Shown one piece after another: positions 38,982 through 63,908 of a DNA stretch of 64,000 nucleotides. This DNA comes from Candidatus Coprousia avicola. GTDB taxonomy: Bacteria; Actinomycetota; Coriobacteriia; Coriobacteriales; Coriobacteriaceae. The notes beneath the pieces were generated by a model. It ran no database searches, was not told the origin of the DNA, and saw nothing but the letters and a program-made list of their open reading frames with translations. How positions within the stretch are numbered: position 1 is the first letter of the stretch; each line of letters begins with the position of its first letter. The DNA lies in assembly GCA_018715125.1 (NCBI GenBank), contig DVMF01000041.1, forward strand, positions 27,885 to 91,884, given 5' to 3'. The position numbers and the translations under genes are program-made.

Positions 38982-39022
38982 AAGACGGCTCGTTGGCGCT
39001 ACTGCCGACGAGCCGTCTTTTT
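38982..39022 (+). terminator. Intrinsic terminator of the PASTA kinase gene, overlapping the 3' end of the convergent AraC gene
   Basis: AAGACGGCTCGT-N14-ACGAGCCGTCTT + TTT. Confidence 0.85.
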
Positions 39023-40054: not shown

Positions 40055-40277
40055 AGGCGTCCCTCTCGTGCGGTCTTGCCCACCCCATCGCCCCCTGTCC
40101 CGTCCATCTTGCAGAGTGTGGGGATATGGTCAGTGTCTTTAGCATGATTCCGATATTAGCGCATTGCCCCGCACGGCATACCATAGTCTCACGATGCGAT
40201 TGCTGGGCGTGTTTACACCCTCGAACCGTCCGCACGGTAAGCAACGCGATGGGTCCCGCCCATCAGAAAGGAGTGCC

Positions 40278-43037
40278 ATGCCCACCCGCTCAGAAGCCGT
40301 TATGAACGGCACCTACGACAACCACCTCCTCCCCTTCCTCTGGATGAAGGGCGAGGACCGCGCCACCATCACCGCCTATCTGGAGAAGATCGCAGGCGCC
40401 GACATCCACGAGGTCTGCCTCGAGAGCCGGACCCATCCCGACTTCTGCGGTGACGGCTGGTGGCGCGACCTGCGCTTCGTCATCGACGAATGCAAGCGAC
40501 TCGGCATGAAGATCTGGATCTTGGACGACGCGCACTTCCCCACGGGATACGCCAACGGCCAGGTGAAGGAGCATCCCGAGCGCGCCAAGGTGGTGCTCAC
40601 GCACCGCACCTATGACGTCGCGGGGCCCGCGCGCGGCCTTTCCGTGCCCCTTAACGACCCTCTGGACCCCACCTCGCAGTTCGTGGGTATCGCAGGCCTC
40701 ACCGACGACGGGCCCGTCGCCATCGATTACCGCGTGGTGCCCGCCCGCCCCATCGAGCGCGCCGAGGAGGATGCCTCCGCCGCAGCGGAGGCCGCGAGCG
40801 GCAACGCCACCGCACAGGGAATGAACGCTATGTTTGCCTCCCTCGCCCAGCTCAATAAGACCGCGCCCGCAGAGCTCGACCGCTTGGTCTTCGACGTGCC
40901 CGCCGGCATCACCAAGGTGTACGCCCTCTCCACGAGCAAGCGCACCGACTACAATCCCGACTACATCAACATGGTCGACAAGGAGTCGTGCGACACGCTT
41001 ATCGAGGCCATCTACGAACCGCATTGGGAACATGTGGGCGACGAGTTTGGCAAGACGATCCTCGGCTTCTTCTCGGACGAGCCGGGCTTTGCCAACGAGA
41101 AGAGCGGCAAAGACGCCGACGGCGGCTCCGACAGCCTCATCGGCAAGGCGACGATGCCGCTCCCGTGGTCCGCTGAACTCGAGCGCCGTCTGCGCGCACG
41201 TCTCGATTGCGCCGATGACACCGCCTTCTGGGGTGCCCTCGCCCAGCTTTGGGACCGTGCTGAGACCGGCGCCCGGACCCGTCACGCCTACATGGACGTG
41301 GCGACCGAGCTCTACCGGGAGTGCTTCGACGAGAACATCGGCTCTTGGTGCCGCGCGCACGGGGTCATGCACATCGGCCATGTGATCGAGGATAAGGGCG
41401 CGCACGAGCGGCTGGGATCGGGCGCCGGCCACTTCTTCCGCGCCATCGGCGGACAGGACATGGCGGGCGTCGACATCGTCATCAACCAGCTCGTCCCGGG
41501 CGTGGACGACGGCTACCACAGCTACGGTCGCGGCCTGTGGGATATGGCGTTTTTCAACTACATGCTCCCCAAGATGGGCAGCTCGGCGGCGCACCTCGAC
41601 CCCAAGAAGCAGGGGCGCTGCATGGCCGAGGTCTTTGGCGCCTTTGGATGGCACGAGGGCCTGCGTGAGATGAAGTGGATCGCCGACCACTTCCTCGTCC
41701 GCGGGGTCAATTACTTTGTGCCGCACGCGTTCTCGATGGATACGTTTCCCGACGGAGACTGCCCGCCGCACTTCTACGCCCATGGCAACAACCCGCAGTT
41801 CCGCCACTTTGGGCACCTGATGACCTACCTGAACCGTATGGCCACGCTGCTCTCGGGGGGTACGGCGCATCCGGTCGCCGCCGTGCTCTACGACGCCGAC
41901 GCCGCATGGGCGGGGGACGCGCAACCGGCCCAGCGCGTATGCCGCGCGCTTACCCGCGCGCAGATCGATTTCGATATCGTGCCCGAGGAGGCGTTCGCCG
42001 ATGCGGGGCGCTATGCGCTGGACGTCTGCCCTGATGGCCATGGTTTCTCGATCAACGGCCAGCGGTATCGCTGCCTGGTGATTCCGGCGCGCGCGTTTGT
42101 GGGCGCGGCAACGCTTGCGTTCTGCCAGCGCCTCGTCGCCGCGGGCGTGACAGTTGTCGCCGTGGACGAGCTGCCGTGCTGCACCTACGACGGCGACGGC
42201 GCGCGCGATACGGGCGCCGCGGCCATCGACCCTGCGGCATGGGAGGGCGCCAACGTGGTTGCACTCGACGCCCTGGCCGCCACCGTGCGCGATGCCCGCC
42301 TGGACGATGTGCGCAGCACCGCCGACGTGCCGTGGCTGCGCGTCTACCACTATACCGGCGCGGCCGCCACAGGCGAGGCGCCCGAGGAGTACTACTTCTG
42401 CGTAAACGAGCACCCGCGCACCGCACTTGCCACCGAGCTCTCGGTACGCGGCGCCGATGGCGAGCTCACGCCCCTTACCGGCGTGCGCCATGACGTGCTG
42501 AACGGTGGAAGCGTCGCGTTTGACGGCACGCTCGCGCTCGCCCCGTACGAGTCTTGCCTCATCGTCGCCGGCGCCACGGCGGATGTCTCCGCCGCAGACG
42601 CCGCCGCGCCCGGGGCAGCGCCCGACGCCCTCGGCATCGCGGGCCCCTGGCACGTCGCCCACGCGAGCGCCCGCGCTTACCCCGCCTTTGGCGCCGAGCA
42701 ACAGCTCGCCGAGCTGGCAGACCTCGACCAGGAGGCCTTCCCCGGCCGCGTGGGCACGTTCCGTTACCGCACGACGTTCACCCTTGCCGCGGATCGCACC
42801 CAGATCACGCTTGATTTGGGCGACGTATACGAAACTGCCGAGGCGTGGGTCGATGGCGCCGCGCTCGGCGTGCGCATCGCACCGCCCTACACCTTTGCCG
42901 CAGGCGACCTTCCCGCCGGCGAGCACGAACTCGTGGTGGAGGTGATCAATACCGTCGACCACCAGATGTGCGATTACTTCTCGATGAGCGAGCCCACGGA
43001 GCCGACGGGCATCTTGGGTCCGGTGACCCTGCGCTAA
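40278..43037 (+). CDS. Large glycosyl hydrolase, GH106-like / jelly-roll-fold containing
   Basis: 'ADIHEVCLESRTHPDFCGDGWWRDLRFVIDECKRLGMKIWILDDAHFPTGYANG' and C-terminal 'TTFTLAADRTQITLDLGDVYETAEAWVDGAALGVRIAPPYTF...GEHELVVEVINT' (GH2/GH106-type beta-sandwich). Confidence 0.7.
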   Translation: MPTRSEAVMNGTYDNHLLPFLWMKGEDRATITAYLEKIAGADIHEVCLESRTHPDFCGDGWWRDLRFVIDECKRLGMKIWILDDAHFPTGYANGQVKEHPERAKVVLTHRTYDVAGPARGLSVPLNDPLDPTSQFVGIAGLTDDGPVAIDYRVVPARPIERAEEDASAAAEAASGNATAQGMNAMFASLAQLNKTAPAELDRLVFDVPAGITKVYALSTSKRTDYNPDYINMVDKESCDTLIEAIYEPHWEHVGDEFGKTILGFFSDEPGFANEKSGKDADGGSDSLIGKATMPLPWSAELERRLRARLDCADDTAFWGALAQLWDRAETGARTRHAYMDVATELYRECFDENIGSWCRAHGVMHIGHVIEDKGAHERLGSGAGHFFRAIGGQDMAGVDIVINQLVPGVDDGYHSYGRGLWDMAFFNYMLPKMGSSAAHLDPKKQGRCMAEVFGAFGWHEGLREMKWIADHFLVRGVNYFVPHAFSMDTFPDGDCPPHFYAHGNNPQFRHFGHLMTYLNRMATLLSGGTAHPVAAVLYDADAAWAGDAQPAQRVCRALTRAQIDFDIVPEEAFADAGRYALDVCPDGHGFSINGQRYRCLVIPARAFVGAATLAFCQRLVAAGVTVVAVDELPCCTYDGDGARDTGAAAIDPAAWEGANVVALDALAATVRDARLDDVRSTADVPWLRVYHYTGAAATGEAPEEYYFCVNEHPRTALATELSVRGADGELTPLTGVRHDVLNGGSVAFDGTLALAPYESCLIVAGATADVSAADAAAPGAAPDALGIAGPWHVAHASARAYPAFGAEQQLAELADLDQEAFPGRVGTFRYRTTFTLAADRTQITLDLGDVYETAEAWVDGAALGVRIAPPYTFAAGDLPAGEHELVVEVINTVDHQMCDYFSMSEPTEPTGILGPVTLR

Positions 43038-43066: not shown

Positions 43067-43288
43067 AGGTATACGCAAACGCACGGTTTGTGTATACCTG
43101 GGCCCCCCGGGTATACACAAGCGTTTGGTTCACGTATACCTAAGCGATCTGGGTATACACAAACACCGGGCTTACGTATACCTGAGCGGCCTGGGTATAC
43201 ACAAGCGCTCGGTTCGTGTATACCTGAGCAGTCTGGGTATACACAAACGCCGGGCTTACGTATACCTAAGTGACTTGTGTATACCCAA
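43067..43288. repeat. Tandem 42-bp palindromic repeat array (five full units plus partial sixth), 11 GTATAC cores
   Basis: Units at 43067, 43109, 43151, 43193, 43235 (each 42 bp), partial at 43277; GTATAC at 43069, 43092, 43111, 43134, 43153, 43176, 43195, 43218, 43237, 43260, 43279, spaced 23/19 bp alternately. Confidence 0.95.
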
Positions 43289-43373
43289 CTAAGGGGTTCT
43301 TTCTATATCGCAGTTCTATTTCCGCAGGTACAGAGCTTGCTTAATACAAATTGATGCCTGTGGGAGGTCGGCT

Positions 43374-43426
43374 AGGTATACACAACTTTCCCAAGTACAC
43401 GCAAATCGGAAACTTGTGTATACCTT
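43374..43426. repeat. Outlying diverged copy of the array unit (AGGTATACACAA ... TTGTGTATACCT)
   Basis: GTATAC at 43376 and 43418 (42 bp apart) with a degenerate core (AAGTACACGCAAA) between. Confidence 0.8.
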
Positions 43427-43464: not shown

Positions 43465-44085
43465 CTAGCGAATGAAATTCGTCTGCGCACGGTGCACGCG
43501 GCCCGGATAGGGGTGCCCGGCTGCCGCGCCATCTTTGATGCACGCGATGAGCCATGCCATATTGCGGCCCAGTTGACGCATGGTCGCGAGGCCCTCCGCG
43601 TCCTGGGCGGCCTCTTCCGGCGTGTTCCCATAGAGCTCGTTCCAGTAATACGAGCTCACAATCGGCATGCCCGTGATGGTGAAATACTTGTTGAGCTGAT
43701 CGAATACCGCCGTCTCGCCGCCGCGCCTGCAGTTGACCACCGCAGCACCCACCTTACCGGACCAATCGACCGCACCGGTATAGAACAGCCGGTGCATGGC
43801 GCTCGTCACCTGGCCGGTCGCCGCCGCATAATGCGTCGGCGAACCAATGACGATGCCGTTGGCTTCCCGCGCTTTGGGAATGAGCTCGTTCACGACATCA
43901 TCCACCACGCACCGGCCAATCTCGCGGCAGCGACCGCACGCCAAGCAGCCAGAAATCGGCTTCGCGCCGAGCCAGGCGATCTCCGCCTCGCACCCGCCCT
44001 CGGCAAGACCCTCGGCCACCGTCTCCAAAGCCAGATTAGTAACGCCCCGCTTGTGCGGGCTTCCGTTGATGAGCAGCGCCTTCAT
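43465..44085 (-). CDS. Flavodoxin/NADPH-dependent FMN reductase-like protein
   Basis: 'MKALLINGSPHKRGVTNLALETVAEGLAEGG', 'CLACGRCREIGRCVVDDVVNELIPKAREANGIVIGSPTHYA'. Confidence 0.85.
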   Translation of the reverse strand: MKALLINGSPHKRGVTNLALETVAEGLAEGGCEAEIAWLGAKPISGCLACGRCREIGRCVVDDVVNELIPKAREANGIVIGSPTHYAAATGQVTSAMHRLFYTGAVDWSGKVGAAVVNCRRGGETAVFDQLNKYFTITGMPIVSSYYWNELYGNTPEEAAQDAEGLATMRQLGRNMAWLIACIKDGAAAGHPYPGRVHRAQTNFIR

Positions 44086-44245
44086 GCGATTCCCCTCTCG
44101 TGAGCGCCTGACTGTACGCACGCCTTTATACCCTATCGAACCGATAACAGGCGCGGCGGCGTCCTAAGGCAGATAGCCCCAGAGCGCCGCCGCGTCAGAA
44201 CGCGAGACAGATTAGCGTGCAACGGAACGGGCCGGCGCGCTTGTC

Positions 44246-63795: not shown

Positions 63796-63908
63796 ACGAC
63801 CGTCCTCCCCTCTGAAGCGCAACCACAAACTACCAACGATAGTGTAGCTGCAAAGCGCCCCCCGCGGGGCCGGCTCCCCGGGAACCACACGGCCCCGGTA
63901 TACGCGAA

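Follow-up and report, generated by a model that had tools for sequence, protein, structure and literature searches.

The window analysed here, a 64,000-nucleotide stretch of the Candidatus Coprousia avicola genome (G000; 2.42 Mb, 93 contigs), harbours a carbohydrate locus between positions 38999 and 49289, which comprises a PTS EIIBC-like gene and hydrolases resembling GH106 enzymes and rhamnosidases, is delimited by AraC-type regulators at both ends, and carries in its middle the repeated element described below. The genes on either side of this element are convergent, as the first-pass annotation had stated, although their naming needs revision: the GH106 assignment of the left neighbour is weak (26.2 bits, below the cut-off of 29, E 3.5e-6), and the gene called flavodoxin-like encodes an FMN reductase. 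The following features were delineated:

40164-43037, plus strand: left neighbour, GH106-like hydrolase, stopping 31 bp short of the element
43068-43424, no strand assigned: whole element, consisting of an expanded left array, a core and a short, identically phased right arm, a plan common to 12 genome loci
43068-43285, no strand assigned: left array of 11 GTATAC half-sites in 23/19-bp phase, with a 42-bp tandem unit
43275-43385, plus strand: conserved asymmetric core with two inner inverted half-sites (TTGTGTATACC ... GGTATACACAA), 111 bp, with 97 bp from GTATAC to GTATAC
43286-43321, plus strand: core left arm (AGGGGTTnTTTCTATnTCGC...), homogenised among the copies of this genome, as judged by pairwise identity and alignment
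43322-43339, plus strand: central motif CCGCAGGTACAGAGCTTG, also present in sister species
43340-43374, plus strand: core right arm, constant in length and variable in sequence, with 46 bp from motif end to inner end in nearly all elements
43375-43386, plus strand: right inner half-site GGTATACACAAC
43395-43400, plus strand: degenerate half-site GTACAC, read from the sequence, with the 19/23 phase kept
43413-43424, minus strand: right outer half-site GGTATACACAAG
43465-44121, minus strand: right neighbour, NADPH-dependent FMN reductase (PF03358), with its 3' end toward the element

Eleven GTATAC cores stand at 43069, 43092, 43111, 43134, 43153, 43176, 43195, 43218, 43237, 43260 and 43279, exactly where the first-pass annotation had placed them, and the measured core-to-core steps within the array alternate between 23 and 19 bp without exception, confirming the strict phasing that it had described. 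Tandem Repeats Finder (TRF) resolved the array as a period of 42 (4.7 copies) and a period of 84. Overall, the window contains 22 GTATAC sequences against 3.2 expected, and 15 matches to GGTATACRYRAA with no more than one mismatch against 0.40 expected (shuffle maximum of 2). Beyond 43279, a distance of 97 bp leads to GTATAC at 43376, a further 19 bp to the degenerate GTACAC at 43395, and 23 bp to GTATAC at 43418; since these three sites are in phase, the phased feature extends to 43424. The array noticed earlier is therefore real, but it forms only a part of the 43068-43424 element, whose core and right arm had been missed. The head-to-head pairing claimed for its half-sites likewise holds as an alternating orientation within the array, but not for the half-sites at 43255 and 43274, the last pair before the core, which are direct and share the same orientation. 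Isolated single half-sites with no array were also observed, at 63897-63908 of the window and at L038:9959-9970 on contig C60 of the same genome.

A search of the host genome with the half-site pattern returned 61 matches, and none in the control. Strict paired palindromes number 38 and are grouped at about 12 loci, distributed over contigs C5, C17 (the window), C32 (three loci), C41/C49, C42, C44, C64, C65, C73 and C78, with the C41/C49 locus being a single array interrupted by an insertion sequence (IS) and the C65 copy being degenerate. Despite their differing sequences, ten of the 12 loci retain an intact core with exactly 97 bp from GTATAC to GTATAC. The left arm and the central motif are similar among these copies, whereas the right arms are often dissimilar (core identity mostly 58-87% for left arms and 20-83% for right arms). 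A palindrome that arose by chance and was duplicated neutrally in tandem would agree with the plain 42/84 periodicity of the window array and with the readiness of palindromes to slip; nevertheless, the recurrence of this core and spacing at twelve dispersed loci, together with the relatives across the genus, refutes this reading, to which we attach next to no probability. The first-pass annotation had held that an array unique to one strain and bound by no protein would be neutral; copy searches in the genome and in related Coriobacteriia recovered both the 12 loci and simpler relatives across the genus, so that uniqueness to one strain does not hold.

The paired array form was detected in two of 400 genomes of the class, namely the host and its nearest relative compared, G002. 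The sister species, which include Collinsella sp. An7 (G001), Collinsella sp. An307 (G003) and uncultured isolates, contain a simple form, in which two inverted TTGTGT-RYRSY-GAAAC half-sites per side enclose a core with the central sequence CCSCAGSTAnAGaGCTTG. This half-site/core/half-site plan is common to G001, G003, G006, G007 and G008, while the patterns used revealed no element in G004 and G005. Sister-species elements are 135-218 bp long, end in inverted half-sites and are non-coding. Among 84,980 species genomes, the double half-site pattern had no match outside the genus, the inspected hits being such elements, and the element pattern had no match in phages, plasmids or viral contigs. 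The array of the window is a lineage-specific swelling of one arm; what is conserved is the central core with its inverted half-sites. Within the half-site spacer, the RYRSY purine-pyrimidine pattern is kept while the bases change, a type of conservation that resembles shape readout. Clusters of half-site-like 11-mers in the same direction and lacking a core were additionally noticed at L171:18590-18946, L179:17170-17428 and L180:2624-2882, with spacings that are alike in G003 and G006.

With distances counted from the central motif, the right arm is 46 bp long wherever that motif is clear, the exceptions being L047, which has a 1-bp deletion, and the degenerate L040, while the left arm spans 46/47, 56/57 or 67 bp. 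The inner totals of 99, 110/111, 120-122 and 131 bp follow a periodicity of roughly 10.5-11 bp (p of about 0.002 with the modal groups fixed, to be read as indicative since the groups were defined after the data had been seen). The left-arm steps of one DNA turn are an indicative signature of DNA turns, and parts that keep helical phase with one another speak for a nucleoprotein complex. The same stepping argues against an RNA role, which the first-pass annotation had mentioned as an alternative. A structured RNA gene or leader would find some basis in the inverted half-sites, which would pair as a long outer stem, and in the two small inner hairpins predicted by RNAalifold; however, the covariation term was unfavourable (+0.75, with both partners altered in only two of 24 pairs), the orientation of the core flips, and Rfam contained nothing at the element (an attI/aminoglycoside-leader hit with E = 1 sits within an inserted IS), making such an RNA very unlikely. 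As a separate observation, a match to a T-box leader that stays below threshold (34.5 bits, E 1.3e-4) lies upstream of an ilvD-like gene in G003 (contig C1, L063:1959-2152).

Comparison of orthologous positions revealed that the occupancy and form of the element differ among relatives. Flanks in G002 are roughly 85-96% identical to those of the host, and at five loci common to both genomes G002 carries the element in full, degenerate or stub form. In particular, the G002 stubs at the window, L039 and L041 loci have lost the core and inner units and kept the outer units, and the junction at the window locus is consistent with a deletion between two direct GGTATACACAA copies. Element-free sites were found at the C5 locus in G002 and G001, at locus V in G003 and at the L041 locus in G003, and comparison of three such sites yielded no clean target-site duplication. 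At the window locus, G003 has no element; a pair of genes resembling a Phd-like antitoxin and a PIN-like toxin, families named by sequence reading alone, lies there between the GH106-like and FMN reductase genes (L327:14900-15930, contig C12). The partition or anchoring role proposed in the first-pass annotation finds no support, given the two of 400 class genomes with the array form, the sisters with none or few simple elements, and the loss of the core at the window locus in so close a relative as G002.

Other orthologous loci are occupied in several species: X in G000, G003, G007 and G008; Y in G000, G002, G003 and G006; P in G001, G003 and G007; and further Q, R, V and W. Relative to G003 and G006, G007 has an inverted core at locus R (over 78 bp, 26% direct versus 65% inverted identity), with flanks in the same orientation and 95-98% identical; transposition to a new place was rejected here, as the flanks indicate the same place with an inverted core. 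Loci Y and P, as well as R in G007, show a divergence of the element far in excess of that of the flanks; Q, V and the comparison of G003 with G006 at R do not, and because the excess is confined to some loci, no general hypermutation is claimed.

The element might alternatively be a host-beneficial architectural or regulatory one, selected rather than mobile, such as a BIME-like site for gyrase or a nucleoid protein, or a terminator-side insulator. Its persistence at the orthologous loci X, Y and P in different species despite diverged arms, its location almost always close to gene 3' ends, and the conservation of the central motif and lengths speak for such a role, as does the binding of E. 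coli REP/BIME by DNA gyrase, IHF and DNA polymerase I (PMC1525189). Among 30 element copies, 21 lie between tandem, eight between convergent and one between divergent genes (simple ORF calls, with each orthologous copy counted). On the other hand, G004 and G005 lack the element by the patterns used, occupancy differs among close relatives, and several cores are lost in G002, so that a selected function of this kind appears possible but rather unlikely.

At two loci, pairs of elements in direct orientation bracket gene blocks. In G007, two elements with 93% identity at locus X enclose 6.6 kb encoding a transporter, a rhamnosidase, an MFS transporter and an AraC regulator, whereas G003 and G008 have a single element between the same neighbours. 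In G006, two 131-bp-type elements at locus Y enclose 9.7 kb (MupG, ROK, AraC, PTS EIIC and GH1), whereas G003, G000 and G002 have a single element, and none was detected there in G004, G005, G007 and G008. As read from these genome comparisons, recombination between like elements would explain the gain or loss of the blocks, whether site-specific or homologous. Locus X of G000 was also considered as a cassette insertion between two elements and proved to be a single array into which an IS had inserted, with GTC duplicated (3 bp). Three arrays carry an IS insertion (C5, C41/C49 and C78): two different IS3-like elements lie inside 13-bp array linkers, at C5 (4-bp duplication CCTG) and C41/C49 (3-bp GTC), and the C78 array terminates in the same IS as C41/C49.

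L031:9564-11105 (contig C5); L034:5500-6577 / L037:1-131 / L042:10009-10139: IS3-like insertions in linkers

These IS3-like elements may target palindromes, as do IS1397 and ISKpn1 of the IS3 family, which prefer REP palindromes (PMC1525189).

The bracketed blocks lend themselves to a further reading, in which the elements would be attachment-like sites for site-specific recombination, as in an integron-like cassette system, with arm sites and a central crossover site: at these scattered, phased arm-core-arm sites, multi-gene sugar-use blocks with a site in direct orientation on either side would be inserted, swapped and lost and the core could flip, with the integrase encoded remotely. The direct pairs around blocks, the imperfect central dyad GCAGGT-N5-GCTTGC, the inverted core at locus R, and arms that seem to assort separately (right arm 0.83 and left 0.58 in the L033 pair) are in its favour. 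It is weakened by the lack of attC-type R/L boxes and by locus Y, where a clean half-swap at the core was rejected since both arms of element B match those of the single element. Moreover, no tyrosine recombinase common to all element carriers was found beyond XerC/XerD-like ones: a 313-aa enzyme occurs in G002, G003, G007 and G008 and is absent from those listed for G000, and G006, which carries a bracketed block in a genome 81% complete, has two PF00589 proteins only. Both the attachment-site reading and its remote-integrase form are regarded as improbable. A RAYT-like protein was not seen in a crude motif scan of a partial DNA set, and an origin of the half-sites from IS21 ends was rejected, as no such repeats flank the 20 IS21 hits from the genus.

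Among known systems, the REP/BIME sequences of enterobacteria and pseudomonads are alternating intergenic palindromes with regular spacing, found in variable-copy clusters and targeted by IS3-family insertions (PMC2817692, PMC1525189). The present element is similarly intergenic, alternating, regularly spaced (23/19), variable in copy number, hit by IS3-like elements and located beside strain-variable genes. Unlike REP/BIME, it lacks a GTAG/GTGG head, its half-sites starting with TTGTGT or GGTATAC, occupies about 12 loci (38 strict paired palindromes) rather than occurring in hundreds of copies or more than 100 per genome, and has a conserved asymmetric core, a fixed arm length and, by the crude scan, no RAYT. 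It resembles MITEs such as RUP and Correia in its size of about 150 bp, inverted ends, dispersal, non-coding nature and presence or absence among relatives; it differs from them in having two half-sites per end, variable spacer bases and a helically phased central motif, in showing no clean target-site duplication at the three sites compared, and in having ends that were found on no IS (those of IS21 differ). The BOX elements of Streptococcus pneumoniae are composite interspersed repeats with a short tandem module of variable copy number (PMC3049150). BOX places end modules round a tandem middle, whereas in the present element the tandem arms enclose a unique middle. In lambda-type attP, the centre is an imperfect dyad, flanked at fixed helical phase by arm-type sites. 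The element shares this layout on both sides of its dyad, but its arms are symmetric, it is present in many copies per genome, and no integrase is adjacent. Its half-site ends, GTTTCRS / SYGAAAC, differ from the R/L boxes of integron attC (GTTRRRY / RYYYAAC), and a parS-like partition site would lie near the origin and be widely conserved, the latter in contrast to two of 400 class genomes. Since the defining features of REP, MITE (a cognate IS) and attC are absent, the element is assigned to none of them; the most fitting description is an interspersed element that resembles BIMEs and MITEs and is laid out like an att site.

Taken together, we favour, with a probability of about 0.55, a genus-restricted, intergenic, palindromic-ended family of BIME/MITE-like elements that is mobile or recently mobile and is predicted to act as a helically phased scaffold for protein assembly. 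Its dispersal, the plan shared across the genus, the spacer pattern of the half-sites, the element-free sites, the deletion and inversion of cores, the bracketing, the IS insertions in three arrays, the near absence of copies between divergent genes and the phase all count for this mobile-scaffold reading. A DNA-binding recombinase, transposase or architectural protein would assemble on each element, with the two inverted half-sites per side gripping the ends and the central motif, at fixed helical phase, nucleating or bending the complex. One protein or complex would probably bind half-sites and core together, and the same protein may have moved the elements, their mobility being provided in trans. 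In this lineage, slippage during replication, or template switching, between the palindromes likely generated the 42-bp units, which would mainly supply more binding sites, and recombination between like elements would let gene blocks come and go. Against this scaffold reading, the incomplete searches above found no enzyme, the site comparisons gave no clear target-site duplication, and inversion, array growth and deletions could all reflect passive palindrome instability. The earlier suggestion of a DNA-level protein platform or an unrecognised mobile repeat is supported by the many related copies and the helical phasing, and its view that the array is neither a terminator, nor a CRISPR, nor an operator is likewise supported.

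The element adds an interspersed-repeat family to the Coriobacteriia, one in which both the birth and the decay of arrays are visible, being simple in the sister species, swollen in the host genome and partly deleted in G002. Its architecture of inverted half-site pairs, a right arm of fixed length, a left arm quantised in DNA turns and a central motif lends itself directly to tests of a nucleoprotein mechanism. Should the link to the bracketed sugar-use blocks prove true, the family would help to explain the swapping of carbohydrate loci in this gut genus.
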